NCBI RefSeq assembly: GCF_025150745.1
Contig: NZ_CP102282.1
Location: 124,001 to 188,000, forward strand
Origin: Eubacterium ventriosum
GTDB lineage: Bacteria; Bacillota; Clostridia; Lachnospirales; Lachnospiraceae
Direction of reading: 5' to 3'
Length of the DNA: 64,000 nucleotides
Shown: piece by piece, positions 37,891 to 56,407 of the stretch
Layout: every line of letters begins with the position of its first letter
How positions within the stretch are numbered: position 1 is the stretch's first letter
The notes under the pieces: model-generated
Told to the model about the DNA's origin: nothing
Database searches by the model: none
The model's input: the letters and a program-made list of their open reading frames with translations, nothing else
Translations under genes and position numbers: made by a program

Positions 37891-38029
37891 ATTTAAATAT
37901 TTATTGTCTATTTTTTACATTACAATGTGTAATATATTATTTTTTATTATGCTTTATTAATATAAACTGTTTTTTTTTACTACTTATATGATATAATATT
38001 TTAAATTATCAATTTTTCAGGAGGACAAT

Positions 38030-38710: not shown

Positions 38711-38785
38711 TTGAAGTATTAGTATTCTATTATTCAAGTATGTTTAATTAATAATAACTTGCGACTTTGATTACATTAATATGAT

Positions 38786-38835
38786 AAAAAATCCCCCAGT
38801 ATAATGATTTCAACCACTATGCTAGGGGATTTTCT
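38786..38835 (+). terminator. Terminator after the AIM24-family gene
   Basis: AAAAAATCCCC pairs with GGGGATTTT around a 30-nt loop with weak inner pairing. It sits directly before the repeat arrays. Confidence 0.7.
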
Positions 38836-38846
38836 TATTTTATTAG

Positions 38847-39177: not shown

Positions 39178-39204
39178 TCAAGGTTTTCACGATAATTATT
39201 CCGC

Positions 39205-39440
39205 ATACACCACAACATTTTCAATTATTCGATAATTTTGTGGTATATTTTTAATTTATGTCAACCAGTTTCTTGTCTCTTTTTATATGAATCAACAATT
39301 TTATACCACAACAATTGCAATATTCATACTAATTTGTGGTGTAAATTGTTTTATGCAAACCATATAATCACATATTTTGTTTAAAATTTGCCTTTACACA
39401 CCACAACAATATTGAATTATCTAATAAGTTGTGGTGTTTC
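39205..39440. repeat. Repeat family B: three hairpin units with a 95-96-bp period
   Basis: ACCACAA starts at 39209, 39305 and 39400. Each is followed after exactly 22 nt by TTGTGGT (39238, 39334 and 39429). Spacers between units are less alike than the hairpins. It directly follows family A. Confidence 0.85.
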
Positions 39441-39449
39441 TTGTTTTTC

Positions 39450-39590
39450 CAGTTTACATAACTTTTATTCTAATCGTTATCAACTTACATAACTTCCATT
39501 CTAATTATCATTGGTTTACATAACTTTGATTTCTATTATCCAAGTTTGTATAAATCTCAATTTTAACCGCTACTAGTTTACATAACTCCA
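39450..39590. repeat. Repeat family C: five direct repeats of about 31 bp
   Basis: Units carry GTTTACATAACTT, starting at 39452, 39483, 39514, 39544 and 39576. The rest of each unit is AT-rich and variable (TTATTCTAATCGTTATC or similar). There is no inverted repeat inside the unit. It follows family B without a gap and reaches to about 90 bp from the nhaC stop. Confidence 0.8.
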
Positions 39591-39680
39591 AAGCTCAACT
39601 TTCCCAAATCTTAACAGCTCTCCAAGTCTCAATTTCAGATAAAATTGTCTTTCAATCATTTGCATAATTTCATCTCGCAT

Positions 39681-41309
39681 CTACTCTGCCACTTCTTTTC
39701 CTGCTGTAAGCACTTTTATTCCCACAACTGTTCCTATCATAAGAACAATTCCAATTGGAAGTGCCAACCACCCAAGCCCTGCTGCCTTCTGCAACGCACC
39801 TGCGATAATGTATGTGATAAATGAAATAACTGCAACTGTTGCAGCGTAAGGTATCTGTGTTGATACGTGGTTTGTATGTTCGCACTGCGCTCCCGCTGAT
39901 GACATAATTGTTGTATCTGAAATTGGTGAGCAGTGGTCACCGCATACTGCACCTGCCATACATGCTGAAATAGCAATAATCATCATTGCAGGATCAGTTT
40001 TCTGGAACGCCTGAACAACAATAGGAATAAGGATACCAAATGTTCCCCATGAAGTACCTGTTGCAAAAGCAAGTCCACAACCTACAACAAATATAACTGC
40101 AGGAAGGAATATTGCAAAACCTGTTGCACTATGTTTCATAATTCCACCAACATATTCTGCTGCACCAAGGCTGCTTGTCATATTCTTCAATGTCCATGCA
40201 AAAGTAAGAATAAGAATTGCAGGTACCATAGCCTTAAATCCTTCAGGCAAACAATCCATACACTTCTTGAAGCTTAAAATTCTTCTTACAACATAGAATA
40301 CAATAGTAATCATTAATGCAAAAATACTTCCGATAGCAAGTCCAACTGAAGCATCACTTTCAGAAAAAGCCTTAACAAAGCTTGTTCCTTTAAAGAATCC
40401 ACCTGTATAAATCATACCAATAATACAACAAATAATAAGAGTAACTACAGGAACTACAAGGTCACAAACCTTGCCTCTCTTTTCTTCAGCCTGTTCTTCC
40501 TCTTTGTAAGTCTTCTGACCTGTTGTAAACAAGTCTCCTTTTGCTGCATTGGCTTCATGCTTAGCCATTGAGCCAAAATCAACTTTTAACAATACTATTG
40601 AAATCATCATAACAATAGTAAGCAAAGCATAATAGTTGTATGGAATTGACTTAATAAATACTACAAATCCATCCTGTCCTTTTACGAAACCTGTTACCGC
40701 TGCAGCCCATGAAGAAATAGGTGCAATAATACAAACAGGTGCTGCTGTTGCATCAATCAGATATGCAAGTTTTGCTCTTGAAACATTATGCTTATCTGTT
40801 ACAGGTCGCATGACACTACCAACTGTAAGGCAGTTAAAATAGTCATCTACGAAAATAAGACAACCAAGCGCAATAGTTGCAAGCTGAGCACCAATTCTTG
40901 TTTTGATATGTTTAGATGCCCAATCACCAAAAGCTGCTGAACCACCTGCTGTATTCATAAGTGCAACTATTGTTCCAAGAACAACAAGGAATACTAATAT
41001 TCCCACATTATATTCATCAGATAGTGAACCGATTATTCCGTCCTCTAATACATGTTCAATTGTTCCCTCAAATGAGCCTCCTGAATAAAAAATTCCACCA
41101 ATTACAATTCCAATAAATAATGAACTGTAAACTTCCTTTGTAATAAGTGCTAATGCTATGGCTACCAGTGGTGGAACCAGTGCCCAAAATGTTCCAAAGA
41201 ACTGTGGAACATACTTAGCCTCTTCGTCGGCACCAAAAACTGTTGTTCCAATAAGAACAACAAACATTAAAGTAAGTACCGCGATAATTCTTTTGTTTCC
41301 TCGTTTCAT
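39681..41309 (-). CDS. NhaC-family Na+/H+ antiporter
   Basis: The 542-residue polytopic membrane protein has about eleven helices. Family features are PLVAIALALITKEVYSSLFIG near the start, IFVDDYFNCLTVGSVMRP in the middle, and GDHCSPISDTTIMSSAGAQC near the end. Relatives exchange Na+ for H+, or malate/lactate or arginine/ornithine-type substrates, so the ion is not certain. The predicted N-terminus looks like a signal-anchor ending around VFGADEEAKYV. AAGGGAG precedes ATG. It is transcribed alone; its end faces the repeat arrays, and no terminator was seen there. Confidence 0.92.
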   Translation of the reverse strand: MKRGNKRIIAVLTLMFVVLIGTTVFGADEEAKYVPQFFGTFWALVPPLVAIALALITKEVYSSLFIGIVIGGIFYSGGSFEGTIEHVLEDGIIGSLSDEYNVGILVFLVVLGTIVALMNTAGGSAAFGDWASKHIKTRIGAQLATIALGCLIFVDDYFNCLTVGSVMRPVTDKHNVSRAKLAYLIDATAAPVCIIAPISSWAAAVTGFVKGQDGFVVFIKSIPYNYYALLTIVMMISIVLLKVDFGSMAKHEANAAKGDLFTTGQKTYKEEEQAEEKRGKVCDLVVPVVTLIICCIIGMIYTGGFFKGTSFVKAFSESDASVGLAIGSIFALMITIVFYVVRRILSFKKCMDCLPEGFKAMVPAILILTFAWTLKNMTSSLGAAEYVGGIMKHSATGFAIFLPAVIFVVGCGLAFATGTSWGTFGILIPIVVQAFQKTDPAMMIIAISACMAGAVCGDHCSPISDTTIMSSAGAQCEHTNHVSTQIPYAATVAVISFITYIIAGALQKAAGLGWLALPIGIVLMIGTVVGIKVLTAGKEVAE

Positions 41310-41409
41310 TTTTTCTCCCTTTCCTTATATTTAATTACAGTGTCTCAAAATCTCATCCCACCTGTGCTTTCACAATAGTCGTACTTTTTAACACTTTAAT
41401 ATTTTTGTT

Positions 41410-42219
41410 TTATTTTTCAAGAATAAACTTCTCGATAACGTGAGCTATTCCATCTTCATTATTAGATTTTGTAATGTAATCTGCGTTCTCCTTAACCACG
41501 TCTGTAGCATTGGCCATAGCAACACCAACGTGTGCGTACTTAATCATTGTAAGATCATTAAATCCGTCACCACAGGCAATGGTATTCTCTTTTGGAATTC
41601 CAAGATGATTAATAAGAACTTCTATTGAATGTGCTTTATCAATTCCCATTGGCAATGCTTCTATAAAGAATGGCTCTGAACGATATATGCTTATTCTTCC
41701 CTCAAACTTCTTTGAGAGAATCTTTTCATGTTCTGCTGCAATCTCGCCCGGTGCCGTTAACAGACATTTGTTAGGATTGTAATCAACATACTCAACAAGA
41801 TTTTTCTCTTTAAGAGGCAACTTGTTAATAAATGATTCCAATTCAATATATTCATCTATTGGAGTTCCAACAACAATGCTATCGTCATCATAAGTAATAA
41901 GACCGATTTTGTTCCCTGTTGCATAATCAACTAATTCAGGAATATATTCTTTTGATAATGCATTCTCATAAATAACTTCCTTTGTTTTCCAGTTGATTAC
42001 TTTTCCTCCATTAAAAGAAAGAACATATCCACCGTACTTATCAAGCTCAAGTGTTTTTGCAACCTGTGCTACTCCCGGCGTTGGGCGTCCTGATGCAAGC
42101 GCCACAATATGTCCTTCTTCCATTATTTGCTTCAATGCCTTTAATGTTTTAGGTGTAACTTTTTTGTCATCATTTGTAAGAGTTCCATCCAAATCTAAAA
42201 ATAATACTTTTCTATCCAT
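41410..42219 (-). CDS. Cof-type HAD phosphatase
   Basis: The 269-residue Cof-subfamily HAD hydrolase has motif I LFLDLDGTLTNDD, motif II ALASGRPTPG, a large C2B cap, and motifs III/IV GIDKAHSIEVLI and CGDGFNDLTMIKYA. It dephosphorylates sugar phosphates or flavin and pyridoxal-type phosphates; the real substrate is not predictable. AGGAG lies before ATG 42219. It is 100 bp upstream of nhaC in transcription order on the same strand, with no terminator between, so the two may share a transcript. Confidence 0.9.
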   Translation of the reverse strand: MDRKVLFLDLDGTLTNDDKKVTPKTLKALKQIMEEGHIVALASGRPTPGVAQVAKTLELDKYGGYVLSFNGGKVINWKTKEVIYENALSKEYIPELVDYATGNKIGLITYDDDSIVVGTPIDEYIELESFINKLPLKEKNLVEYVDYNPNKCLLTAPGEIAAEHEKILSKKFEGRISIYRSEPFFIEALPMGIDKAHSIEVLINHLGIPKENTIACGDGFNDLTMIKYAHVGVAMANATDVVKENADYITKSNNEDGIAHVIEKFILEK

Positions 42220-42421
42220 GCTTTATCTCCTGTTTTGTAAAATTTATTAAAGGTTTGGCCACCCATAATTTTACCATAAAAATTAAAACATACAAATAGT
42301 TTTATATAGTTAGTTTTTGGCATTAAAATATTTAATTTTTTTAGTTTATATTCCGTAATAATTATTTATATTAACAATAGTTAATTATCCCATATATTTA
42401 TTTAATTTTCATTCACTGTAT

Positions 42422-42685
42422 TCACTCAACATCCTTAGGTGTTGTATTTCTGTATATGTACATGACTGCTCCGAAATATCCCGGTATAACAGCTACGTAA
42501 CCAATAATTACAGCCAATGTTATATAAGATATTTTACAAAAAATTTCCAATACAACACAAACTATTGTTGCCACAAGTATCCAAAACATAACACTTATAG
42601 CCATATATAAACTTTTTTTGTTTACCTTTGTTAAATGGTTTAGTTCTGAAGATATAAGCCACAATTTTTCATAAATTGTATGCAT
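42422..42685 (-). CDS. Small two-helix membrane protein
   Basis: The 87-residue protein has an N-terminal amphipathic helix (IYEKLWLISSELNHLTKVNK) and two membrane segments at about 28-48 and 53-75, then a short polar tail. AGAAGG lies nine bases before ATG 42685. It starts 45 bp after the Na/Pi transporter gene on the same strand, so it may be cotranscribed. The family is not recognised. Confidence 0.6.
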   Translation of the reverse strand: MHTIYEKLWLISSELNHLTKVNKKSLYMAISVMFWILVATIVCVVLEIFCKISYITLAVIIGYVAVIPGYFGAVMYIYRNTTPKDVE

Positions 42686-42730
42686 AAAATCAACCTTCTT
42701 TCTTTAATCTGCAATAAACCTAACTTAATT

Positions 42731-44479
42731 CTAGTCAATTGCATATTTATCTTTGTTCTGTGTATAAACCTGATAGAATTTACTTCCCGGATTTTTATCT
42801 ATTTCACTGCTGTATGCATGAAGTCCAAGACTGTCATGGTCAATTTCCTCAACACATCCTGCAATGTTAGAACAATGGTCTGATATTCTTTCCAAAGAAG
42901 TAAGAATGTCTGTCATTATAAATCCCTGCTCAATTGTGCACTTACCATTTTTTAATCTGTCAATATGTCTCTTCTTCAACTGGTGTTTCAAATGGTCTAT
43001 TACTTCTTCCAATGCCTCAACAGTTAATGAAGCATCCATATCATTATTTTCAAAAGCTGTCTGTGACTGATTCAAAATATCTTTTGCTGCATTAATTAAA
43101 ACTTTTAATTCTTTTCTTGCATTTTCTGAGAAATGTAATTTTTTATCATGAATTTCTTCTGCTGACTTTGCTATTCCTACTGAGTGGTCTGAAATTCTTT
43201 CAATGTCTCCGATGATGTGTAATAACTCACTTACGCTCTTACTGTCACTTTCACTTAAGTCTCTTGTACTGATTCTTACAAGATAGGTTCCTATCTTATC
43301 CTCGTACTTGTCCACTTCTTCTTCGTACTCTTTAACCTTGTCTATTACTTTTGAATCGTACTCACTTAAAATGTCACAGGCACAGCTTACTCCTTCAATT
43401 GTTTTCTCAAACATTTCCATTACAACTTTTTTACATCTGTCAATTGCAATTGCAGGTGTTGTCATAAGACGTTCATCAAGTAACTGTAATGATTCTTTCT
43501 TTTCTGCATCCTTTATAATGATACATGCAAGTTTTTCCAACTGGTTTGCAAATGGGAATAATAATAATGTACATAAAATATTAAATGTTGTATGAACAAT
43601 TGCTATTCCAAGCTGATTGGCTGAATCACTTATAAATGGAAACTGTATAATTGAATTTAATAAGCAAAATACTGCAAGCCATACCGTTGTTCCGATTATG
43701 TTAAATGACAAATGAACAATTGCTGTTCTTTTTGCGTTTTTGTTTGCTCCAAATGATGAAATAATTGCTGTTACACAAGTTCCGATATTCTGTCCCATAA
43801 TGATAGGAATTGCACTTCCGTATGTTACTGCTCCTGTTGAAGCCAATGCCTGAAGTATACCTACTGAAGCTGATGAACTCTGGATTACTGCTGTTAAGAA
43901 TGCACCTGCCAATACACCTAATACCGGATTGCTAAACATTACTAATATGTTTCTAAATTCAGGAACATCTCTTAATCCGCTAACAGAACCTGACATCTGT
44001 TCCATTCCAAACATTAAAACTGCAAATCCTAAAAGAATCATTCCTGTATCTGCACGTTTTGAGTTTTTCTTTGACATAATCATTATCAAACCAATCATTG
44101 CAAGAATTGGTGTAAATGATGTTGGCTTTAAAAGACTAACCCAAATGTTTGAGCTTTCAATCCCTGTTAAACTAAGAATCCAAGATGTAATGGTTGTTCC
44201 AACGTTTGCCCCCATAATAATTCCTATTGCCTGCTTAAGACTCATAATTCCTGAGTTAACAAAACCCACAACCATAACTGTTGTTGCTGAAGAACTCTGA
44301 ATAATTGCTGTTACTCCTGCCCCAAGCAAAAATCCCTTAAATCTGTTAGATGTTAATTTTTCAAGAATGTTTTTCAACTGATTCCCAGCTCTTTTTTCAA
44401 GAGCATCACCCATAATATTCATTCCAAAAAGGAATAATGCTAAACCTCCAATAAGAGATAATACGTCAAAAATGTTCAT
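42731..44479 (-). CDS. Na+/phosphate cotransporter with PhoU-like domain
   Basis: The 582-residue protein has two inverted NptA/PNaS membrane repeats with the QSSSATTVMVVGFVNSG and QSSSASVGILQALASTG signatures, about nine helices in total, then a cytoplasmic PhoU-like helical domain (about 345-560). Proteins of this type import phosphate with Na+. Its leader has the 30-nt palindrome at 44523-44552 and a candidate Pho box at 44616-44635, so it probably belongs to the same regulon as pst. AGGAGG is five bases before ATG. Confidence 0.92.
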   Translation of the reverse strand: MNIFDVLSLIGGLALFLFGMNIMGDALEKRAGNQLKNILEKLTSNRFKGFLLGAGVTAIIQSSSATTVMVVGFVNSGIMSLKQAIGIIMGANVGTTITSWILSLTGIESSNIWVSLLKPTSFTPILAMIGLIMIMSKKNSKRADTGMILLGFAVLMFGMEQMSGSVSGLRDVPEFRNILVMFSNPVLGVLAGAFLTAVIQSSSASVGILQALASTGAVTYGSAIPIIMGQNIGTCVTAIISSFGANKNAKRTAIVHLSFNIIGTTVWLAVFCLLNSIIQFPFISDSANQLGIAIVHTTFNILCTLLLFPFANQLEKLACIIIKDAEKKESLQLLDERLMTTPAIAIDRCKKVVMEMFEKTIEGVSCACDILSEYDSKVIDKVKEYEEEVDKYEDKIGTYLVRISTRDLSESDSKSVSELLHIIGDIERISDHSVGIAKSAEEIHDKKLHFSENARKELKVLINAAKDILNQSQTAFENNDMDASLTVEALEEVIDHLKHQLKKRHIDRLKNGKCTIEQGFIMTDILTSLERISDHCSNIAGCVEEIDHDSLGLHAYSSEIDKNPGSKFYQVYTQNKDKYAID

Positions 44480-44522
44480 TTTTTCCTCCTAAAACTTTTC
44501 TAAATGTCAAATATTGGGGTAA

Positions 44523-44552
44523 GATTGTGAGAGTGCGAAGCACGTAACAATC
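44523..44552. repeat. 30-nt palindromic element upstream of the Na/Pi transporter gene
   Basis: GATTGT and ACAATC arms enclose AGTGC/GCAC, giving a hairpin with a short loop. The first 14 nt, GATTGTGAGAGTGC, match the feoB leader element at 12247-12276 (which is in the opposite orientation to this copy). Confidence 0.7.
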
Positions 44553-44615
44553 CGTGTAATTTCTTCCCTGTCTACATATTCATAGTATAGTGGGAGTGTA
44601 AATTGTAACTATTCT

Positions 44616-44635
44616 CTTTGTTAAATCTAAGTAAA
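44616..44635 (-). promoter_or_regulatory. Candidate Pho box of the Na/Pi transporter gene
   Basis: The minus strand reads TTTACTTAGATTTAACAAAG, two TTTAAC-like units 10 bp apart. A TATACT -10-like element follows at about 30 bp. It matches the boxes before phoB and pstS. Confidence 0.55.
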
Positions 44636-44709
44636 ATTTATTAAATATATTAAGTTTCTTAAATTTAGATTTAATAATTACCACAAGTCACTTATTTCTA
44701 TTATCACAA

Positions 44710-45378
44710 TTAAGCCGAGATTTTATAACCAACTCCACGGATAGTTTTTATAACATCTCCTGCCGTTCCAAGTTTCTGCCTAAGAGTTCTTACATGAACA
44801 TCCACTGTTCTACTTTCTCCGTCAAAAGAGTATCCCCAAATCTTGTTAAGAAGCTGTTCTCTTGACAAAACAATACCTCTATTCTTTAAAAGAAGGCATA
44901 ACATTTCATATTCTTTTAATGTTAAGACAACTTCCCTGTCGTCAACTTTTACAAGATGCTTTATTGGGCAAACATAAAGATTATTAATTGTATAATCCTT
45001 TTCTTCATGCTTGTACTCAGATCTTCTGATTAACGCTTTAACTCTTGCAACCATTTCCATCATGCTAAATGGTTTTGAAATATAATCATCTGCACCACTT
45101 TCAAGTCCGTTTATTCTGTCATACTCACTTGTTTTTGCTGTTTCCATAATTACCGGAAGCTTCTCAATTGCAGGATTGCTTCTTATTTTCTTTAAAACAT
45201 CAATTCCACTTTCCTCAGGAAGCATTACATCAAGTATTACAAGACTTGGCTCTTCTTCCTCAACTGCCTTCCAAAATTCTGAAGGTTTCTCAAAGCCTTT
45301 TGCCTCAAGACCTGTACTGTTTAATGCATATATTACTAATTCTCTAATACTGCTATCGTCTTCTACCAAATAAATCAT
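44710..45378 (-). CDS. PhoB-like OmpR-family response regulator
   Basis: The 222-residue protein has a receiver domain (MIYLVEDDSSIRE, phospho-Asp in LVILDVMLPEESG, Lys in YISKPFS) and a winged-helix DNA-binding domain (LTLKEYEMLCLLL and SREQLLNKIWGYSFDGESR, then VDVHVRTLRQKLG). It is placed between phoU and a phosphate transporter gene, so it is probably the phosphate regulator. No histidine kinase gene is next to it. ATG 45378 has GGAGG five bases upstream. A candidate Pho box at 45464-45485 in its own leader suggests autoregulation. Confidence 0.88.
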   Translation of the reverse strand: MIYLVEDDSSIRELVIYALNSTGLEAKGFEKPSEFWKAVEEEEPSLVILDVMLPEESGIDVLKKIRSNPAIEKLPVIMETAKTSEYDRINGLESGADDYISKPFSMMEMVARVKALIRRSEYKHEEKDYTINNLYVCPIKHLVKVDDREVVLTLKEYEMLCLLLKNRGIVLSREQLLNKIWGYSFDGESRTVDVHVRTLRQKLGTAGDVIKTIRGVGYKISA

Positions 45379-45421
45379 ATATACCTCCAAATAATTAAAT
45401 TCTAACTAACATATTATTAAC

Positions 45422-45463
45422 CTTACTTTCCAGGTTAAATTAACTTTAGCCCCGGAAAGTAAG
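45422..45463. repeat. 10-bp inverted repeat in the phoB leader
   Basis: CTTACTTTCC (45422-45431) pairs with GGAAAGTAAG (45454-45463) around 22 nt that contain a smaller GGTTAAATTAAC repeat. There is no T-run. It touches the Pho box at 45464. Confidence 0.6.
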
Positions 45464-45485
45464 ATTTATGTTAAATGCAGGTAAA
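45464..45485 (-). promoter_or_regulatory. Candidate Pho box of the phoB-like gene
   Basis: The minus strand reads TTTACCTGCATTTAACATAA (45466-45485), then AT. Two TTTAAC-like units lie 10 bp apart. ATTTAACATAAAT is identical in the pstS upstream region. Confidence 0.6.
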
Positions 45486-45547
45486 AATTGGGAGATATTT
45501 GAATTTTTTACAATATATTTTTGAAAAGTTTTAGGTTTTATTTTGAT

Positions 45548-46192
45548 TTACTCTGCGTGATAGCCTAGAATTGAGTACTCAACCCATTCTGCAATATTAG
45601 TTGCATGGTCGCCTATTCTTTCAAGATATTTGGCAATCATAAGAATATCAATAAATTCTTCACCATCACTTTCTCCTGAAGAAATTATTCTTATTAACTC
45701 TTTCTTTATCTCTTCAAAATAGTTATCAACAACATCATCATAGACAATAACATTTCTTGCCATTTCAATATCTTTCTTTACAAAAGACTTAATGCTCTTT
45801 GTTACCATTTTTATAACTTCGTTTGCCATGTCACTTAAATGTGTTTTGTATTTTACATCACTTTTTTTAATATACTGAGCCAATTCAACAATATCTGATG
45901 CCTGGTCGCCTATACGCTCCATGTCTGATATCATCTTAAGTGCTGAGGAAATAACTCTTAAATCCCTTGCTACCGGCTGCTGTCTAAGCAAAAGTTTCAT
46001 ACAAATAGATTCAATATCTCTTTCTTTTTTGTCAATTTCGCTGTCTGTTTCCAATACTTCTCTTTTTAATTCTTCATGGTCATCTTCCATTGTAATTTTG
46101 ATGGCTCCTGAAATAGCCTGCTCACAAAGTTTACCCATTTTAATTAATTCATTATTTAGATTGTCAAGCTGTTCATCAAACTTATTTCTCAT
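45548..46192 (-). CDS. phoU: Phosphate signalling protein PhoU
   Basis: The 214-residue all-helical protein has two PhoU repeats: MRNKFDEQLDNLNNELIKMG at the start, RVISSALKMISDMERIGDQA in the first, and MIAKYLERIGDHATNIAEW in the second, with the conserved metal-binding ERIGDxxxxI motifs. It links PstSCAB activity to the phosphate sensor and represses the regulon when phosphate is high. ATG 46192 follows the pstB stop (TGATGATATG) with GGAAGG upstream; the longer frame into pstB is not used. Last gene of pstSCAB-phoU. Confidence 0.95.
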   Translation of the reverse strand: MRNKFDEQLDNLNNELIKMGKLCEQAISGAIKITMEDDHEELKREVLETDSEIDKKERDIESICMKLLLRQQPVARDLRVISSALKMISDMERIGDQASDIVELAQYIKKSDVKYKTHLSDMANEVIKMVTKSIKSFVKKDIEMARNVIVYDDVVDNYFEEIKKELIRIISSGESDGEEFIDILMIAKYLERIGDHATNIAEWVEYSILGYHAE

Positions 46193-46196
46193 ATCA

Positions 46197-46946
46197 TCAA
46201 CCAAACCTTCCTGTAATATAATCCTCAGTTCTCTTGTCTCTAGGCATTGAGAACATTTGCTCTGTGTCACTATATTCAACAACCTCTCCCAACAAGAAGA
46301 AAGCTGTATTGTCTGATATTCTGGCTGCCTGCTGCATGTTATGAGTTACCATAACAATTGTGTAATCCTTCTTTAATTCTGTTGCCAAATCTTCAATCTT
46401 TGATGTAGAAATAGGATCAAGTGCTGATGTTGGTTCATCCATTAATAACACTTCTGGTTCAACTGCTAAAGCTCTTGCAATACAAAGTCTCTGCTGCTGG
46501 CCACCTGACATTGCAAGGGCATTTTTCTTTAATGAATCTTTTACTTCATCCCAAATTGCTGCCTGTTTTAATGTTCGCTCAACAATTTCGTCAAGTTTTG
46601 CCTTTGAACGGATACCGTGAGTTCTTGGTCCATATGCAATGTTATCGTATATGCTCATTGGAAAAAGATTAGCTTTCTGGAATACCATTCCCACTCTTTT
46701 TCTTAAGTCATTTACGTCCATGTCTTTATATATATCAACACCATCAAGTGTTATTTTTCCCTGTATTTTACAATCCACTACAAGATCATTCATTCTGTTA
46801 AGTGATTTAAGTACTGTTGACTTACCACATCCTGAAGGTCCTATAAATGCTGTAATCTGGTTCTTTGGAATTGATAAATTTACATCCTTTATGGCATGAA
46901 AATCTCCGTAAAAAAGGTCCATGTCCTTTATATCTATTTTTCCCAT
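46197..46946 (-). CDS. pstB: Phosphate ABC transporter ATPase PstB
   Basis: This 249-residue ABC ATPase has Walker [17 protein letters not shown], the PstB-type Q-loop [15 protein letters not shown], signature [12 protein letters not shown], Walker [14 protein letters not shown] and H-loop VTHNMQQA. It drives high-affinity phosphate import. The pstA TAA directly precedes its ATG (TAAATG), so the genes are tightly coupled. Confidence 0.97.
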
Positions 46947-47855
46947 TTATTTATTTTCCTTTCCAATCTTGTTTGCAAGTATGCCCGATAAACCATTAAT
47001 AATTAAAATAATTATCAAAAGTATTACCGCTGTTGCATAAGCCTGATTTGTGTAAAGTCCTTCTGACAATAAGCAGTACATATGAACTGCCAAAGTTCTT
47101 GTTGAAGATAAGAAAAACTTGCCCGAGCCCCAAGGCACTGCCGCCACTGAACCTGCCGTAAAAATAAGTGCTGCACTTTCACCAACAATTCTTCCTATTG
47201 CAAGAATAACCCCTGACAAAATTCCCGGAACTGCTGCCGGCAAAACAATAACAAATATTGTTCTAAGTTTTCCTGCACCTAAACCAAAACTGCCTTCTCT
47301 AAATGAGTCTGGCACAGCAATAAGCGCTTCCTCTGTTGTTCTTATAATTGTTGGCAAAACCATTATTGCCAGTGTTAAAACTCCGGCTATTAATGAATAT
47401 CCCCAATGTAAGGCAAGAACAAATGCAAGGAAACCGAACAAACCGAAAACAATTGAAGGTATGCCTGCCAATGTTTCAGTTGTAACTCTTATGATTTTTA
47501 CAAGTTTTGAACCTCTCTTTGCATACTCAACAAGATAAATTGCTGCTGCCACTCCAATAGGTACTGAAATAATCAGTGTCATTGCAACTATTATAATTGT
47601 GTTAATAATAGCCGGTGTCATTGAAACATTATCTGAATTGTATTTCCATGCAAACAAGTCTGCATTAATATAGGGAACACCTCTTATAACTATGTAAGCA
47701 ACAAGATAAACCATTATTCCAACTGTAATTGCCGCTGCAAGCATTATAAGAATCAGCATAATAAGTGAGCCCGGTTTTCTTAAATATTCTTTTAACTTGC
47801 TGTTTGTTTTTACTATAGGAGCTTTTCTGCCTACTGCTTTTACTTCTTTTTCCAT
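46947..47855 (-). CDS. pstA: Phosphate ABC transporter permease PstA
   Basis: The 302-residue permease has six membrane helices, with the PstA-type LAGIPSIVFGLFGFLAFV and the EAA loop REGSFGLGAGKLRTIFVIVLP. An extra N-terminal cytoplasmic stretch of about 30 residues is basic. Its ATG overlaps the pstC stop by one base (TAATG). Confidence 0.96.
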   Translation of the reverse strand: MEKEVKAVGRKAPIVKTNSKLKEYLRKPGSLIMLILIMLAAAITVGIMVYLVAYIVIRGVPYINADLFAWKYNSDNVSMTPAIINTIIIVAMTLIISVPIGVAAAIYLVEYAKRGSKLVKIIRVTTETLAGIPSIVFGLFGFLAFVLALHWGYSLIAGVLTLAIMVLPTIIRTTEEALIAVPDSFREGSFGLGAGKLRTIFVIVLPAAVPGILSGVILAIGRIVGESAALIFTAGSVAAVPWGSGKFFLSSTRTLAVHMYCLLSEGLYTNQAYATAVILLIIILIINGLSGILANKIGKENK

Positions 47856-48703
47856 TATTCAGACCTCCTATTAATTATTGAAAAACATACATTTATAATT
47901 AATACAAATACAAACAATACTACTGCTGTAGCAATTAATGCTCTTCTATGTAATCCTGTGGCATAAGCCATTTCAAGTACGATATTGGCTGTAAGTGTTC
48001 TGACACCACTTGTAATGCTGTCCGGTATAATTGCCTGGTTCCCGGCAACCATTACAACTGCCATTGTTTCACCTATGGCTCTACCCATTCCAAGAATAAT
48101 TCCTGACATAACACCTGACTTTGCCGCCGGTATTACCGTCTTAAAAATACTTCTTTCCTTTGTTGCACCAAGGGCAAGCGCTCCTTCATAATATGCTTCC
48201 GGTACTGCCACAATTGATGATTCTGCTGTGTTAATAATTGTTGGAAGTATCATCATTCCAAGAAGAATTGATGCTGCAAGTATACCGTCACCTGCTGTTC
48301 CAAACATTTCCTGAATAATTGGAATAATAACAACCAGTCCGAAGAATCCGTATATAATAGAAGGAATCCCTGCCATAAGGTTAATTATTGGTTTGATAAA
48401 TTTATATAATTTTTTGGGACAGTATTTTGCAAGAAATACTGCTGTTAAAAGTCCAATTGGAACACCAATTATCATTGCCCCTGCTGTTACATAAATACTG
48501 CCTACAATCATTGGCCATATTCCAAAAAGATTTTGTGACACACGCCATTGTGTTCCAAAAAGGAACTTTGTTATTCCTATTTCTTTAATTGCCGGCACAC
48601 CATTTGCAAACATAAATAAACAAATTGTTATAACTGCTGCAATAGATATACATGCGCATACAAGAAATACTATTTTCATTAAAAAATCTAATACTTTATT
48701 CAA
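47855..48703 (-). CDS. pstC: Phosphate ABC transporter permease PstC
   Basis: The 282-residue permease has six helices, with MAGIPSIIYGFFGLVVIIPI and the EAA loop YEGALALGATKERSIFKTVIP. The best start is TTG 48703: GAAGGAG lies eight bases upstream. The open frame begins at GTG 48724, but that codon overlaps this ribosome site. A hairpin at 48730-48753 separates it from pstS. Confidence 0.95.
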   Translation of the reverse strand: MNKVLDFLMKIVFLVCACISIAAVITICLFMFANGVPAIKEIGITKFLFGTQWRVSQNLFGIWPMIVGSIYVTAGAMIIGVPIGLLTAVFLAKYCPKKLYKFIKPIINLMAGIPSIIYGFFGLVVIIPIIQEMFGTAGDGILAASILLGMMILPTIINTAESSIVAVPEAYYEGALALGATKERSIFKTVIPAAKSGVMSGIILGMGRAIGETMAVVMVAGNQAIIPDSITSGVRTLTANIVLEMAYATGLHRRALIATAVVLFVFVLIINVCFSIINRRSE

Positions 48704-48729
48704 AATATTTTCTCCTTCATTCACTAAAA

Positions 48730-48753
48730 GCAGAGGAATTTTAATCCCTCTGC
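48730..48753 (-). terminator. Leaky hairpin between pstS and pstC
   Basis: GCAGAGG (48730-48736) pairs with CCTCTGC (48747-48753), followed on the minus strand by TTTTAG. It probably lets most transcripts stop after pstS, giving an excess of binding protein. Confidence 0.65.
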
Positions 48754-48777
48754 CTGTACCCTTATATGCAGATTTTA

Positions 48778-49662
48778 TTACTGAACATCAGCCCAGTCTG
48801 TTAAGTCACCTGTGTAGATTTTCTTAATCTGATCTGATGTAAGGTTTGTTACCTGATTTTCTGTGTTAACAATTACAGCGATACCATCTAATGCAATTTT
48901 CTGAACCTGTAATTCTTTTGCTTCTTCATCTTTTAATTCTCTTGATGACATACCGATTTCTGTTGCACCTTCGATTGCTGACTGAATACCTGCTGAAGAA
49001 CCTGATTCCTGAATTTCAATTGAAGCGTCTGCGTTTAGTTTTACATATTCATCTTTTAACTTATCCATTAATGGCGCAACTGATGTTGAACCTGCTAAAG
49101 TGATTTTTCCTTTCTTACCACTTGCCTTGTATGATTCTGTTGCTTCAACTCCGATGTAACCGTTGTCGTTTACAATCTGCTGTCCTTCTTTGCTCATAAT
49201 GAATGAGATGAAGTCTTTGTCAATGTCTGATAACTTATCTTCTTTGTAACAAATGTTAAATGGTCTTGATACTTTGTAATCACCTGATTTAACGTTTTCT
49301 GCTGTTGCGTCAACACCGTCAACCTGAACTGCCTTAACGTCTGTTGATAAAGAACCAAGTGAAACATAACCGATTGCACTCTTTGTCTGTGCTACCTTCT
49401 GGAGCATTACTGATGTGCTGTTTGTAATCTGTGCTGAACTTACTGTAATGTCATTTTCGTTTTCATCTACAACTCCAAGAAGTTCTACGAAAGCTCCTCT
49501 AGTTCCTGAACCTTCTTCTCTTGAAACTACTGTGATTGCCTGTGACTTAGCTCCTGAATCAGAACCATTGTCACTGCTTGCACTCTTGTTGTTGCCGCAT
49601 CCTGTGAATGCTAATGTTGTAATAACCAATGCAGATACTACTGCTAAAACTTTCTTTCTCAT
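48778..49662 (-). CDS. pstS: Phosphate-binding lipoprotein PstS, circularly permuted
   Basis: The 294-residue protein has a lipoprotein signal (lipobox FTGC, Cys22) and the PstS phosphate-binding fold. The order of its halves is reversed relative to classical PstS. Here the second-lobe segment comes first (ITVVSREEGSGTRGAF at 43-58, RPFNICYKEDKL at 133-144, FISFIMSKEGQQIV at 151-164). The classical N-terminal lobe follows (KITLAGSTSVAPL at 186-198, IEIQESGSSAGI, and NLTSDQIKKIYTGDLTDW up to the end). In classical PstS the last segment leads directly into ITV/ISV, so the break lies at the hinge. ATG 49662 has GAGGAG ten bases upstream. Its leader has a small hairpin (49706-49733), and candidate Pho boxes lie upstream. 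Confidence 0.93.
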   Translation of the reverse strand: MRKKVLAVVSALVITTLAFTGCGNNKSASSDNGSDSGAKSQAITVVSREEGSGTRGAFVELLGVVDENENDITVSSAQITNSTSVMLQKVAQTKSAIGYVSLGSLSTDVKAVQVDGVDATAENVKSGDYKVSRPFNICYKEDKLSDIDKDFISFIMSKEGQQIVNDNGYIGVEATESYKASGKKGKITLAGSTSVAPLMDKLKDEYVKLNADASIEIQESGSSAGIQSAIEGATEIGMSSRELKDEEAKELQVQKIALDGIAVIVNTENQVTNLTSDQIKKIYTGDLTDWADVQ

Positions 49663-49747
49663 TTTCAATTTTCTCCTCGTTTTCAAGTAAATTTTTAATA
49701 TGTTTTGAAGGAACTTATTTTTTGTTTCCTTCAGGGTACACATATAT

Positions 49748-49800
49748 ACTATTTAAATTTCGTTAAATGCAATAGCGCATTTATGTTAAATCTATTTAAA
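49748..49800 (-). promoter_or_regulatory. Candidate Pho boxes of the pst operon
   Basis: The minus strand holds TTTAAATAGATTTAACATAA (49781-49800) and TTTAACGAAATTTAAATAGT (49748-49767). Each is a pair of TTTAAC-like units 10 bp apart, 13 bp between pairs. TATATATG follows as a possible -10. Confidence 0.6.
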
Positions 49801-49834
49801 ATATTCGGGAAAAATGTAAAAATGTCGAAAGTTG

Positions 49835-49892
49835 TATACAGTCAGAGATGGGAATGGCAAACACGTTTGCCATTCCCATCTCTGACTGTATA
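49835..49892. repeat. 28-bp perfect palindrome
   Basis: The arm starts TATACAGTCAGAGATGGGAA (49835 onward), continues TGGCAAAC, and is repeated exactly in inverse (49865-49892) with only AC between. No T-run follows directly. It is between the pst promoter and the hairpin array. Confidence 0.9.
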
Positions 49893-49914
49893 TAAAATCA
49901 AGAAGAATTTGGAG

Positions 49915-50238
49915 AATGTACCCCGAAATTTGGATGATTTAAAATATCGGGGTACATTTTCGTTGCATTTATATATTATGTTGTATTTTCAAGTAACAGA
50001 TTTAATGAAATGTACCCCGATTTTGAGAATTTTTTATATATCGGGGTACTTTTATTATTGATATATACAATAAGTTATGTCTCAAGATGTAAAATTGCTA
50101 AATATGTACCCCAAAAATCAAGATAATTTCTATAGCGGGGTACAGCCAGGAAAAAATATCACTTATACGTGCTATGTTACATTTAAAATTGTAAAATTCG
50201 TACCCCGAAAATCAAGATAATTTCTATATCGGGGTACG
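49915..50238. repeat. Repeat family D: four hairpin units with an exact 94-bp period
   Basis: GTACCCC starts at 49918, 50012, 50106 and 50200, exactly 94 bp apart. Each is followed after exactly 24 nt by GGGGTAC. Outer pairs often extend to 9-12 bp (AATGTACCCCGA with TCGGGGTACATT in unit 1). The loops of units 3 and 4 share ATCAAGATAATTTCTATA. The stretches between hairpins are the same length but are not clearly alike. The array fills the gap between yqeY and pst. Confidence 0.9.
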
Positions 50239-50382
50239 GGTGCAAAACACCCTGGCCACAATCAATAACGAACGCAGCAAAATAACAAAATCAATCTGTT
50301 TGTAGACATATATCCTTGCCTACACGCAAAAAAATAAAGAAGAAACACATGTCTTGCATTTCTTCTCATTTGTTTCTATTAT

Positions 50383-50820
50383 TTACTGGCACATTTTTGC
50401 AACTATCTGGTTGATTACTTTGCCATCTGCTCTGCCTTTAAATGCAGGCATTACTGTTTTCATTATCTGGCCTTTGTTCTTTGTTGCAATTACGTCTGCA
50501 AATTTTTCTTTTAATTCTGCTTCAACTTCTTCTGCACTCATAAGCTTTGGTGCATATTCGTTGAATACATCATATCTTGCCTGGTATTCTTCTATTAAGT
50601 CTGTTCTGTCAGCAGGACATGAATCAATCTGTTCCTTTACAGTTTTTAATTCTTTAAGAATTACTTTGTTTACCATTTCTTCAGGAATATCATCTCTGCA
50701 GCCTGCATCAATTCCTGCTTTCTTTACTGCCTGAATCAATGCTGAAATTGATTCCTTTCTAGCTTTGTCTCTAGCTTTCATTGCAGCTATCATGTCTTTC
50801 TGTAATACTTTAATGTCCAT
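50383..50820 (-). CDS. yqeY: GatB/YqeY-domain protein
   Basis: The 145-residue helical protein starts MDIKVLQKDMIAAMKARDKA and has the typical GRADGKVINQIVAKMC ending, close to the tail domain of GatB. YqeY proteins are thought to bind tRNA or assist transamidation, but the role is not settled. Normal length; AGGAGG before ATG. It lies 87 bp after ygiQ on the same strand and may be cotranscribed. Its end faces the hairpin array. Confidence 0.92.
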   Translation of the reverse strand: MDIKVLQKDMIAAMKARDKARKESISALIQAVKKAGIDAGCRDDIPEEMVNKVILKELKTVKEQIDSCPADRTDLIEEYQARYDVFNEYAPKLMSAEEVEAELKEKFADVIATKNKGQIMKTVMPAFKGRADGKVINQIVAKMCQ

Positions 50821-50907
50821 TGTTTGCCTCCTATATTTTAATTATTAATTAACTATCTTCTACCTAACATAGTATACCACTCTAAATTTAGGATTCAAAT
50901 AGAAACT

Positions 50908-53073
50908 TTAACGTCTCTTGCTAGATTTCCTGCCGGACTTTCCGTTATGCACATTACCGGATTGTACTTTACCATTACGTGAATTGCCGGATTGCACTTT
51001 GCCATTATGTGAGTTACCTGTCTGCACCTTACCGCCACGGGCATTTTTGTCATTTGCAAAATTCTTACCACTGCGGGTATTTTTATTATTTACTGAATTT
51101 TTTCCTCCGCGGTTGTCTTTATCTGCGAAATTCTTACCACGACCATTCTTGTTATTTGAGGAATCTTTGCCTGAAAAATTCTTACCTCGCGCATCCTTAC
51201 GTGAATCCTTAGACTTTCCGTTACCTTTTCCGCCGTTTCCACCATAGTTTTTCTCATATTTAAACTGTCTGGGTTTAATAAGGCATTCCTTGCCAAAACC
51301 TATAAGGTCTTCTCTTCCTGCTATATGAAGTGCTTCTTTAACTAAGTCGTAGTTTGCAGGATTTCTGTACTGCATAAGGGCTCTTTGCATTGCCTTTTCG
51401 TGCGGATTTTTTGGAACATACACCGGCTTCATTGTTCGCGGATCAACTCCCGTATAGTACATTACAGTTGACATTGTTGACGGTGTAGGGTAAAAATCCT
51501 GAACCTGCTGGGGATTATAGCCAATATCTCTAAGGTACTCAGCCAACTTCACTGCCTCTGTCATATCAGAGCCCGGATGGGAACTCATAAGATATGGCAC
51601 AACAAACTGGTTCTTTCCTTCTTTTTCGTTAAGTTTCTTATATTTAGTGATAAAACTTTCATAAACACAATTCTGAGGTTTTCCCATATAAGACAAAACC
51701 TTATCAGAAATATGCTCAGGAGCTACCTTAAGCTGTCCACTAATATGATATTTAACCAGCTCTTTAAAGAAAGTATCATCTTTATCTTCCATAATATAGT
51801 CAAATCTAATACCTGAACGGACAAATACTTTTTTGACCTTAGGCAATTCTCTTAACTTTCTAAGAAGACTTAAATAATCCTTGTGGTCAACATTCAGATT
51901 CTTACAAGGATGTGGGAAAAGACATTGCTTATGCTTACACACACCTGATTTTAACTGCTTCTTACATGACGGATGATAAAAGTTAGCTGTAGGGCCACCA
52001 ACATCATGAATATATCCTTTAAAATTAGGCATATCAATAATTTTTTTTGCCTCATTTATGATTGATTCGTGGCTTCTTGACTGAATAATTCTTCCCTGAT
52101 GGAATGTTATGGCACAGAAACTACATGCCCCAAAACAACCACGACAACTTGCCAATGAAAACTGAACTTCCTGAATGGCAGGTATCCCACCTAAAGCCTC
52201 GTAACTTGGATGGTAAGTTCTCTCATATGGAAGGTCGTAAATATCATCCATTTCCTGTCTTGTTAAGGGCTCCTGGGGTGGATTCTGTACAACATAAACT
52301 CCGTTTGGATAAGGTTCCACCAAAGTTTTTCCATTAAAAGGATCAGTATTTTCAGACTGAACCCTAAAACTATTTGCATACTCTAATTTGTCTTCCTTCA
52401 TGGCATCATAAGACGGAAGAATTATTGGATCATAAGCAAGTTCTATATTTTTAGTCTTAAAAACAGTTCCCGGAATATAAGTAATATCCGTAACATCCAT
52501 ACCACTTGCCAAGGCATCTGCAATCTGAACTATACACTTTTCACCCATTCCATAAGTTAAAAGATTTGCCTGACTATCCAATAAAATTGAACGTTTAAAA
52601 CTATTGCTCCAATAATCATAATGCGCCATTCTTCTAAGACTTGCCTCAATACCACCTATTATAATCGGCTTTGTTTTGTTAGTTCTGCGAATAAGATTAC
52701 AATAAGCAACTACTGCATGATCCGGTCTTTTTCCAATTACTCCGCCCGGAGTGTAGGCATCACTATCTCTTCTTTTCTTTGAAACATAGTAATGATTAAC
52801 CATTGAATCCATATTTCCACCCATTACCAGAAATGCCAATCTTGGTTCTCCCAAAACATTAATGCTTTCATCGTCCTTCCAATCAGGCTGTGAAATAATA
52901 CCAACTGTATATCCATTAGCTTCCAAAACTCTACTTATAATAGCATGTCCAAAAGATGGATGGTCTACATAAGCATCCCCTATTACAAACACAAAATCTA
53001 ACTGCTCTATTCCTCTTTCCTTCATATCCTCTTTGGATATTGGTAAAAATGCCATATTTATTTTGTATGCCAT
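50908..53073 (-). CDS. YgiQ-family radical SAM protein
   Basis: The 721-residue protein has the UPF0313/YgiQ N-terminal domain ([36 protein letters not shown]) and a radical SAM cluster motif [11 protein letters not shown], with [14 protein letters not shown] and PYLMSSHPG further on. The substrate is unknown. From about residue 620 the tail is low-complexity, rich in Gly, Asn, Lys and Arg, with repeats of [10 protein letters not shown] type, and is strongly basic. The start ATG 53073 has no ribosome site of its own; a five-codon upstream frame with a good site ends one base before it (see 53075-53092). Confidence 0.9.
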
Positions 53074-53074
53074 A

Positions 53075-53092
53075 TTAAGAAAATATGGTCAT
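53075..53092 (-). CDS. Five-codon upstream frame before ygiQ
   Basis: ATG ACC ATA TTT TCT TAA (MTIFS) follows AAAGGAG at 3 bases and ends one base before the YgiQ ATG (TAATATG). The ribosome site is 22 bases from the YgiQ start, too far for direct use, so reinitiation after this frame is a likely route for translation. Confidence 0.45.
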
Positions 53093-53121
53093 ACGCTCCT
53101 TTCTCTTAACATTTACAAAAC

Positions 53122-55488
53122 TTATCTTATGCTACTTTCTGCAGCTTCCAATGTTGCATATCCCTGTAAATGTGCTGTATTTTCTATAGTCATATATGCA
53201 AGATTTTTTCCCTCTCTTGCCAGATTTACAATAAATTGTGCATAAAGTTTCAACAATTCTTCTGAATATGTTAATAACTCTCCCTTTAAATAAGTTTCAT
53301 AAGAAGTGTTATCAATCTGATCAGCATCACTTGTTATATCCCTTGCATTAGATGCAAGCTTTGGATAACTCTTAGCAAAATCCTTCATCCAGTCTACCTG
53401 AATCTGTGCAATCTGATTTACAATTGCTATTGTTCTCTCCGATTTTTCAGGAAAATTATCTTTAATCTTCTTATATTCTTCAGGTGAAGTATGTTCCATC
53501 ATTCTTCCATATTTCTCGGTAATCATATTCCAACCCTTAGCCTTGTTTTCTTCCCAAAGATTGCAAATGCACTCTAGCATTTCATCTGTCCAAGTCATAT
53601 ACTGACTCTTTCTCATAACATAGAAGAAAGGCCAATTATTCTGACAAGACGCTCTTCCACCAACATTCTGCACTTTATCAAAAGCTTCAAATTCAAGTTT
53701 TACTATTTTATCTATTGTTTTTTCTCTGTCAAACATTTCAACTTTCCCTTCTGCCAAATCCATAATTGGTCTCACATAGTCATTTAAAAAGTTTGAATTT
53801 CTATTCTTTATTAGTTTTAGTTCCAATAATTTATCAATTATAATTTTTGCTATTTCTTCCATAATAATGGCTTTTTCATCTTTTTCATTAAACTTAGTAT
53901 TGTCATACAAATAACCATCCCAAGCATTCTTCTGAGCAGGAAGCTGACTTAATTTTTCAAGCAATGAAACAATCTTCTCAGTTCCATCCAATCTACTAAC
54001 TCCCTTAAAAAGCCATTTGTAGTACGGTGCAAACTTATTATTTAAAATGTACACACATTTCATTGTCTCTTTCATAAAATCAGAAATGCAAATCTGTGCC
54101 GTTACATAATCTTTCCTTGCCATTGCTCTTTCATAATTGCTCTGACCTGTCTGAGCCATTGCCCCAAGCTGTCTTGCAAGCTTAACAAGTCTTGCCTGAA
54201 AAGGCTGATTTTCAAATTTTCTTCTTATCTTAGAAAAATATCCTAAATCGTCCCTAAAAACTTCACCGTTAGTAACTGTTGCAATTTTATAATCTTCAAG
54301 ATTAATCCATTGTTCTAATGTTAGATTTCCATCTCCAGAACCTGTATACTTTTTATAAAAATCTTCAACTACACAAACGCCCACTCTTCCTTCAGCCATA
54401 ATGGTGTCAACTCTTGTAATGCCCTTATAACTTTTTGGAAGTTTGTTATATTCATCCTGAAGTTTTTCACCGATTTTCTCATAAACATCTTCCGTAATCC
54501 ACATACAAAATCCCGGGCCGAAATCGTGGTCTCTTGAATAAACATCATCAAAGCCAAATCGCTCTGAACCTTCCCCAACGAATCCCACCGCTATTTTGTC
54601 CTCATATTCAGAAAAATTATTATGAATCATATCCTTGCCGTACTCTTCATAAAAACTTTTTGCCAGCTCTATACCTGTAAGTTCTTTCTTTTCTTCTTTT
54701 ATTTTGTCAAAAACCTTTGCCAGATTTTCTTTTGTAATATTATAAGCACTGCCACGTCCCATATTTGCTTCTATCTCCGGCAACGCCTTTTCGTATAATT
54801 TAGCTGCCTCTTCATACTGATTTAAGCTACACTTAACACTTGCCATGGCACAAAGGGCTCCGCTGTAATGAAAGTTTTTCACTTCATCTCTGTCAAATAT
54901 TTCCAAAGCCTTCTTAAGGTAGTCTTCCGCCTGACTTGCCTGATTAATTTCAATCAATGACGCTGCCAGATTTGTATAAGTTGTGGCAACTTCAATATCC
55001 ATTCCTTCTATTTTTTCTATAATGGACAGTGCCTTTTTAAGATGTTGGACTGCCATAGGAAAATCATTCATCTCCTGATACAAAAGAGCAATGTTATTGT
55101 TAAGACTTGCCATTCTATAATCATCACTTGGAATATTCTCATTATATATAGAAAAAACTTCTTTATAAACTTCTAAAGATTCCGCAAGTTTTCCTGCCGC
55201 TCTGTAAGCGTTTGCCACATTTTGAAGGGAAGTAGCATAATCCACAGTTCCTTCAATCCCCATTTTCTTCATTAATTCTATGCAATCATTACATGCCTTA
55301 ATAGACTTTTCAAACTGACTTGTATCCCTGAAAAATCCCATCATTTCATTAAGAATTGTAAACTGAGCTGCCAAGTCATTTTCTTTTTTTGCCTGTTCTA
55401 TGCTTTCATTGAAAAATGGCTCGACATCGTTAATTCTTCTTTCCGTATACAAACTATCCAACTCTTCTATAAAACCGTTAATATCCAT
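53122..55488 (-). CDS. TPR - DUF4037 - DUF4125 fusion protein
   Basis: The 788-residue cytoplasmic protein starts with about six TPR-like helical repeats (residues 5-260; ATSLQNVANAYRAAGKLAES, then YTNLAASLIEINQASQAEDY). A DUF4037 region follows (about 290-520) with a nucleotidyltransferase-like GEGSERFGFDD and YSRDHDFGPGF, where the acidic pair could bind metal. A DUF4125 region follows (about 560-720) with EFEAFDKVQNVGGRASCQNN and MRKSQYMTW. DUF4037 and DUF4125 are of unknown function. ATG 55488 has GGAGG five bases upstream. It is 48 bp upstream of ygiQ in transcription order. A nucleotide-transfer role steered by TPRs is possible, but this is inference. Confidence 0.85.
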   Translation of the reverse strand: MDINGFIEELDSLYTERRINDVEPFFNESIEQAKKENDLAAQFTILNEMMGFFRDTSQFEKSIKACNDCIELMKKMGIEGTVDYATSLQNVANAYRAAGKLAESLEVYKEVFSIYNENIPSDDYRMASLNNNIALLYQEMNDFPMAVQHLKKALSIIEKIEGMDIEVATTYTNLAASLIEINQASQAEDYLKKALEIFDRDEVKNFHYSGALCAMASVKCSLNQYEEAAKLYEKALPEIEANMGRGSAYNITKENLAKVFDKIKEEKKELTGIELAKSFYEEYGKDMIHNNFSEYEDKIAVGFVGEGSERFGFDDVYSRDHDFGPGFCMWITEDVYEKIGEKLQDEYNKLPKSYKGITRVDTIMAEGRVGVCVVEDFYKKYTGSGDGNLTLEQWINLEDYKIATVTNGEVFRDDLGYFSKIRRKFENQPFQARLVKLARQLGAMAQTGQSNYERAMARKDYVTAQICISDFMKETMKCVYILNNKFAPYYKWLFKGVSRLDGTEKIVSLLEKLSQLPAQKNAWDGYLYDNTKFNEKDEKAIIMEEIAKIIIDKLLELKLIKNRNSNFLNDYVRPIMDLAEGKVEMFDREKTIDKIVKLEFEAFDKVQNVGGRASCQNNWPFFYVMRKSQYMTWTDEMLECICNLWEENKAKGWNMITEKYGRMMEHTSPEEYKKIKDNFPEKSERTIAIVNQIAQIQVDWMKDFAKSYPKLASNARDITSDADQIDNTSYETYLKGELLTYSEELLKLYAQFIVNLAREGKNLAYMTIENTAHLQGYATLEAAESSIR

Positions 55489-55588
55489 TTTTCCTCCTAA
55501 CCTGTCACTGCCATAAATAAACATATTTTATGCATAATTATCTAATACACTTTGACAACATCTTTTAACATAACACTATTATACCTGA

Positions 55589-56407
55589 CTATTTTCTCTT
55601 TAGAAATGCCAAATTTCCAATAATGCAAAATATAATAAACATACACAAATTAGCAACAACAACGCTTGCTCCGGCAGGAATTGAAAAAGCGTATGAACAA
55701 AGCAAACCTGCCGTAAAATTTATTACCGCAAGAATTGCAGAACATATCGTTACACTTAAAAAGCTTTTAAAAACTCTCATTGAAGTAAGCGCCGGAAAAA
55801 TAATAAGACTTGAAATCAACATTGCTCCCATCATTTTTATTCCAAGTACAACAGTTACCGCCGTAAAAATAGAAATAAGTGTATTGTACATTCCAACTTT
55901 CACACCTGTTGCTTTCGAAAAACTTTCATCGAAAGTCACTGCGAAAATTCTATGATAGCAAAATCCAAACATTATAAGTACAACAACAGACAGTACAACA
56001 CTAAAAATAACATCATCTTTAGACATTGCCAAAATACTACCAAACATATAACTACACACATCTGTGCTAAGTCCTGTTGTTAACGATGTAACAATAACAC
56101 CAATTGCCAGTGATGAAGCTGACACCATAGCTATTGCCGCATCACTTTTCATCTTACCGTTTTCTGCCAATCTAAGTAAGAAAAAGGCTGCAATTATAAC
56201 AATTGGTATTGAAAACTTAATTGGTGCAAATCCCAAAGCTATTGCTATGGACAATGCTCCAAATGAAACGTGTGACAAACCGTCACCTATCATTGAATAT
56301 CTTTTTAAAACAAGGCTGACGCCTAAAAGAGCTGCGCAAAGTGATACCAATACTCCTCCGATAAAAGCCCTCTGTATAAATCCATGGGCAAACATTTCAC
56401 TAATCAT
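55589..56407 (-). CDS. znuB: Zinc ABC transporter permease
   Basis: The 272-residue ABC-3 permease has about eight helices, with RAFIGGVLVSLCAALLGVSL, GDGLSHVSFGALSIAIALG and the metal-path-like SLIIFPALTSMRVFKSF. It forms the zinc channel with ZnuC. ATG 56407 overlaps the znuC end (ATGATTAG) by eight bases, with GGAGG eight bases upstream; a longer frame to 56479 lies inside znuC and is not used. Last gene of the zinc operon. Confidence 0.93.
   Translation of the reverse strand: MISEMFAHGFIQRAFIGGVLVSLCAALLGVSLVLKRYSMIGDGLSHVSFGALSIAIALGFAPIKFSIPIVIIAAFFLLRLAENGKMKSDAAIAMVSASSLAIGVIVTSLTTGLSTDVCSYMFGSILAMSKDDVIFSVVLSVVVLIMFGFCYHRIFAVTFDESFSKATGVKVGMYNTLISIFTAVTVVLGIKMMGAMLISSLIIFPALTSMRVFKSFLSVTICSAILAVINFTAGLLCSYAFSIPAGASVVVANLCMFIIFCIIGNLAFLKRK

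Follow-up and report, generated by a model that had tools for sequence, protein, structure and literature searches.

What order do the two lobes of this phosphate-binding protein follow along the chain, and how did that order arise? The question stems from an earlier reading of the window (the whole 64,000-nucleotide stretch of DNA analyzed here), made from the letters alone and called the sequence-only reading below, which proposed that the pstS gene at 48778..49662 encodes a circularly permuted PstS. The gene lies on the minus strand.

Segment order and predicted fold of the window PstS

The ORF, together with its profile and PDB matches, specifies a permuted phosphate-binding lipoprotein of 294 aa, and a plausible AGGAG ribosome site, identified by eye, lies 10 nt 5′ of the ATG at 49662. 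Residues 1-40 (49543..49662, minus strand) read as a signal peptide, a lipobox Cys at residue 22 and a flexible linker. Segment II (residues 41-172; 49147..49542, minus strand) carries ITVVSREEGSGTRG and corresponds to the C-terminal half of classical PstS, here placed first. Following the join of the old C- and N-termini, delimited by the gap between profile matches (residues 173-183; 49114..49146, minus strand), segment I (residues 184-293; 48784..49113, minus strand) carries AGSTSVAPL and NLTSDQIKKIYTG and corresponds to the classical N-terminal half. The AGSTSVAPL lobe comes last and the other lobe first, as the sequence-only reading had described.

The proposed permutation was borne out by profile and structure databases. 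TIGR02136, the NCBIfam profile for PstS, matches both of its halves to the window protein in two stretches that are not in profile order (whole-protein E 1.3e-59); residues 175-293 align with profile positions 29-155, which puts the profile's front at the back of the protein. The whole-protein score of 201.9 bits lies 4.7 bits below the curated cut-off of 206.6, a shortfall that we ascribe to the permutation. Pfam PBP_like_2, whose cut-off is passed (121 versus 27), also matches in two stretches, with residues 183-292 on profile positions 8-125. Using phmmer, the classical PstS structures 4q8r and 4gd5 yielded two stretches in swapped order (for 4q8r, chain 114-243 on window residues 37-170 and chain 5-112 on residues 186-292), with per-stretch E values of 1e-23 to 1e-26 that rule out chance. 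In contrast, 4H1X aligned as one colinear stretch (window residues 38-292 on chain 6-263, E 6.7e-62), and it alone among 25 matched PDB sequences spans both halves in one stretch. As judged from these alignments, the chain order of the window PstS is swapped relative to classical PstS.

Structure prediction and topology comparison, suggested earlier as a check, gave the same picture. An AlphaFold2 model built from an alignment of 50 rows (mean pLDDT 89.7, pTM 0.79; pLDDT ~50, and hence low confidence, for residues 1-40) matched the permuted 4H1X at Foldseek rank 1, with a target TM of 0.96 and an rmsd of 1.1 over 258 columns at 44% identity; for the PstS entries 4gd5, 4q8r and 1twy, the alignment extends over just 130-140 columns. 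By prediction, the window PstS is a single two-lobed fold that superposes on 4H1X. In the model, a new N-terminal strand spans residues 44-48, and the chain closes with a long strand (252-266), a helix (276-284) and, beyond it, the C-terminus; the claim that the protein ends at the hinge was therefore imprecise. We take strand 252-266 to be the hinge crossing, judging from the fold, and from the usual topology of this fold and the predicted secondary structure we presume both new termini to lie in lobe II, past the hinge. They would open in a loop where most of the classical proteins compared carry V(or L)GG plus a few residues. The old termini are, we assume, close together in lobe I. Of 136 distinct permuted proteins, 135 have a gap of 10-16 residues between the two profile matches, and one has a gap of 29. 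The chain ends within 5 residues of the segment I match in 144 of 149 distinct permuted ORFs.

Retention of the ligand motifs had also been claimed, and R48, S52, G53, S192, S222 and D259 are indeed identical in 29/29 permuted tree rows outside a second permuted clade described below (locus L039 included). The first five are likewise identical in 6/6 rows of that second clade, and in 40 classical rows R48, S52, G53 and S192 are invariant while S222 differs once. By analogy with classical PstS structures, these five residues presumably line the phosphate site. Where the segment II match is strong, 134 of 136 permuted proteins have a lipobox-like motif ahead of that segment, as do 13/13 whose match is weak (12 from the second clade plus L113). 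In classical proteins the motif stands ahead of segment I (89 of 95); the lipid tether has thus switched lobes.

The gene heads a pstS-pstC-pstA-pstB-phoU operon; genes for a response regulator and a Na+/Pi cotransporter come next, and all lie on the minus strand. The permeases PstC (47855..48724; TIGR02138, 280.4 bits against a cut-off of 196.45) and PstA (46947..47855; TIGR00974, 270.6 against 193.45), the ATPase PstB (46197..46946; TIGR00972, 416.5 against 343.2) and PhoU (45548..46282; TIGR02135, 198.4 against 130.25) were each assigned by profile; the phoU start codon is uncertain, and as listed the gene overlaps pstB. The PhoB/PhoP-like response regulator (44710..45390) carries Pfam Response_reg and Trans_reg_C, and the cotransporter (42731..44479) carries Na_Pi_cotrans and a PhoU domain. 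Inspection by eye of the ORFs from 38000 to 56000 revealed no histidine kinase gene beside the regulator. Upstream of pstS, a promoter scan returned 2 promoter-like sites versus a shuffle mean of 5.5, and a terminator scan, which included the inverted-repeat site, found none. That site is a near-perfect inverted repeat with 31-nt arms and a 2-nt spacer (49832-49895), whose 20-nt core lacks a second genomic copy at up to 2 mismatches. Between pstS and the upstream gene, 49918-50237 holds three copies of a palindromic element of ~38 nt, GTACCCCGA...TCGGGGTAC.

Overall, we are highly confident that the window gene encodes the functional phosphate-binding lipoprotein that serves a PstSCAB-PhoU importer, a circularly permuted PstS of the PstS 2 (4H1X) type. 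Phosphate would be bound between the lobes and delivered to PstC/PstA as in classical PstS. The permutation would alter the connection only: the old termini in lobe I would be joined by ~11 residues, the new ones opened in the loop that VGG-x-x fills in classical proteins, and the lipid tether placed on lobe II, not lobe I.

Distribution of the permuted order

How widely the swapped order occurs bears both on its authenticity and on its age. Match rows that cross the join, counted by hand, set lower bounds on its frequency. In the window's class, 158 of 291 genomes gave a match at 1e-10, and no fewer than 58 of the 291 encode a permuted PstS, two of them as partial genes. The corresponding minimum is 10 in a phylum sample of 299 genomes (172 matching at 1e-12) and 10 among 60 relatives (26 matching at 1e-8); each count includes the window genome. 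Frames carrying a single half (L176, L180, L268-L270, L273 and L288) were excluded. Of these, L176, L269/L288 and L270 are located at the ends of contigs, and L180 consists of two overlapping frames in classical order. The search for the same order in other clostridia, as had been proposed, thus succeeded down to the genus: among 22 other genomes of the window's genus, 4 encode permuted proteins (68-73% identity), one (G304) is classical and 17 lack a match. In a scan of named genomes, the best 80 of 515 encoding stretches, a choice that favors the query's own order, all carry a permuted PstS, and three carry two. Their titles include clostridia, a Streptococcus, Collinsella, Paraeggerthella and Parvibacter. 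The permuted order is thus common, and a rare event of the window's lineage is not supported.

The same data bear on whether a chimeric assembly or a frameshift joined two gene halves, an origin that the sequence-only reading had itself raised. The order recurs in the 4 of 22 congeneric genomes, in the best 80 of 515 loci and in a crystal structure, 4H1X, and the window genome is one contig, 99.97% complete. These independent genomes and the 4H1X structure refute such an origin, whose probability we regard as negligible. The gene is also the sole PstS gene detected in the window genome; the other match (E 0.004) covers residues 1-38 only.

A one-piece permuted match of 48.8% identity on a plasmid of the spirochaete Treponema saccharophilum (NZ_AP025290.1, 32221-32991) suggests transfer between phyla, and horizontal spread of the permuted PstS is likely. 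Annotation hides segment order: the two best-matching permuted relatives on plasmids are labelled no more precisely than 'substrate-binding domain-containing protein', and the window PstS falls just under the TIGR02136 cut-off.

Number of origins and a proposed tandem route

A search with the L035 protein (genome G221), a 33% match to the window PstS, retrieved eleven further colinear homologues spanning >300 residues (families f28 and f215), together with a triple array. To place these proteins, the two PstS segments were aligned separately and then set in one order. The first PstS tree held 66 of 261 rows after clustering; the larger one held 75 of 293, with L038 also dropped for long branches. 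A quick PstC+PstA tree, with SH-aLRT support only, covered 64 of the 183 operons that have long enough PstC and PstA (247 were found). Joint PstS+PstC+PstA sets comprised 40 rows without L038, and 38 after L039 and L242 were dropped as well.

Two permuted clades emerged. In the 75-row PstS tree, the main clade (28 rows, 99/100) contains the window PstS and the Streptococcus row L117; 4H1X itself is absent from the tree. The second clade (6 rows, 100/100) lies inside a 95/83 group with four classical rows. We consider it likely that these clades reflect two independent permutations at the same loop, one in the main clade (the window and 4H1X type) and one in the second (the L035 type), whose operons otherwise group with classical ones. 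The permease genes favor this reading, as in the PstC+PstA tree the second clade falls together with four classical operons (SH-aLRT 99), apart from the main clade (19 rows, 99). Furthermore, an insert of ~100 residues at one place in PstA, after the first hydrophobic stretch and ahead of the conserved permease part, occurs in 12/12 second-clade operons (L035 and L275-L285) and in 8 classical ones (L192, L201, L205, L217, L241, L036, L200 and L238). It is absent from the other 220 of 240, including the main permuted type, and alignment confirms that the window PstA is without it. A model of the insert was built from nine of the twenty carriers, of both kinds; models from one kind, however, find the other only weakly (best E 0.011), so homology of the insert rests more on place and length than on sequence. 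A resemblance of the insert to a PDZ domain, noticed by eye, was set aside because Pfam E values of 0.11-0.17 in two of five fall below the cut-off, and the long PstA frames of L016, L106 and L064 proved to be N-terminal read-through of the stop-to-stop frame rather than inserts.

The alternative is a single ancient permutation, with the second-clade PstS acquired by replacement or transfer, or with classical order restored in several lineages through tandem arrays. Topology tests cut both ways. An AU test on the joint 40 rows rejects one permuted clade (p 0.009), but the test does not reject it for PstS alone (p 0.398, in a set with one second-clade row), for PstC+PstA alone (p 0.362) or for the joint data without L039 and L242 (38 rows, p 0.063). 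L039, permuted and long-branched, shifts between trees, and together with the classical L242 it stands beside the main permuted clade in the PstC+PstA and joint trees. The second clade itself sits on a long branch (1.4-1.9). One permuted clade appeared in 0 of 200 bootstrap trees for both PstS trees and for the 38-row joint set, although the PstS bootstraps are unsettled. For a single origin it can also be said that the fused array described below holds classical-order units across its joints, which makes reversal mechanically easy. Weighing these points, we regard a single origin as rather unlikely; two origins are likely, not proven.

How could such a protein form? Locus L275 (G648:C82, 5693-8614, minus strand) holds one ORF with three permuted PstS units in the order II-I-II-I-II-I, 973 aa from a GTG and 990 from stop to stop, directly preceding pstC, pstA, pstB and phoU. 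Units recur with a period of 286 residues. Any two of them share 91-94% DNA identity and differ by 38-51 synonymous and 14-22 non-synonymous codon changes; such divergence argues against a simple assembly error, while the copy number is less certain. L264 is the same place, shortened. Across its joints the array contains two classical-order units, and residues 282-529 of the 973 align with TIGR02136 positions 40-281 as the best stretch. L275 is the kind of array that a duplication route predicts, yet it belongs to the second clade and is not ancestral to the window gene. The sequence-only reading had feared that a tandem-duplicated ancestor still giving the classical order might undo its claim; the relative's fused array is built of permuted units, and the permutation stands. 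A search for 1.5-copy intermediates (I-II-I or II-I-II) among ORFs of at least 60 aa in the window and 294 loci returned only the three-unit array.

Separate tandem copies also occur. At L032 (G117, 4224-6217) and L033 (G227, 5377-7252), two adjacent permuted pstS genes head one pst operon each, and the second copy in G117 has diverged to 38% identity with the query. In the light of the fused array and the separate tandem genes, a route by tandem fusion and subsequent loss of the outer halves is plausible, and it could run in either direction. For the window gene, the likely course would be tandem duplication and in-frame fusion of pstS, after which the outer halves were lost. On balance, we favor the broader proposal that PstS underwent two or more independent permutations, all at the same surface loop and by in-frame tandem fusion, with the triple-unit PstS as a living snapshot of the intermediate kind; as a composite claim, this is held with somewhat less assurance than two origins as such.

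Comparison with known systems

A permuted PstS is already embodied in the solved structure 4H1X and is common. The evolutionary pattern around the window protein is of more interest than the permutation itself. In close relatives, either form, permuted or classical, can stand first in an importer operon of the same kind. The two forms thereby offer a natural experiment on what the lipid tether and the connectivity of the chain mean for capture and docking, and on the origin of permutations. Among open-licence PMC papers, the best-ranked matches gave no account of a permuted PstS. The wordings 'circular permut' and 'PstS' met in one paper, a lake virome study, and no word starting with 'permut' occurs in the retrieved portions of PMC4913102, on the two pneumococcal Pst systems, or of PMC12096839 and PMC5439949.

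The closest known system is PstS 2 of S. pneumoniae (4H1X, SP_2084), which shares the full-length order of the window PstS; no structural difference between the two was found, and only the organism differs. Classical PstS, as in 4gd5 and 4q8r from Clostridium perfringens and 4exl, PstS 1 of S. pneumoniae, has the same segments, pocket motifs and operon kind, but the opposite segment order, with the signal peptide and lipobox ahead of segment I. The earlier use of S. pneumoniae PstS as the classical reference therefore applies to PstS 1, which aligns to the window protein in two stretches, and fails for PstS 2, which is permuted.

Natural circular permutation is on record in the accessible part of the CPSARST paper (PMC2395249) for glycine betaine-binding proteins including OpuAC (2B4L), for molybdate-binding proteins and for CysB. 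These families share their class of two-lobed binding fold with PstS. OpuAC chains, weak hits as they are, took Foldseek ranks 2, 4 and 5 against our model; within the best 50 rows, only 4H1X exceeds them in query TM. They differ from the window model in substrates, with 12% identity and an rmsd of 6.4. Whereas the permutation in OpuAC, molybdate-binding proteins and CysB separates distant families, that of PstS occurs within one function, and even within one genus.
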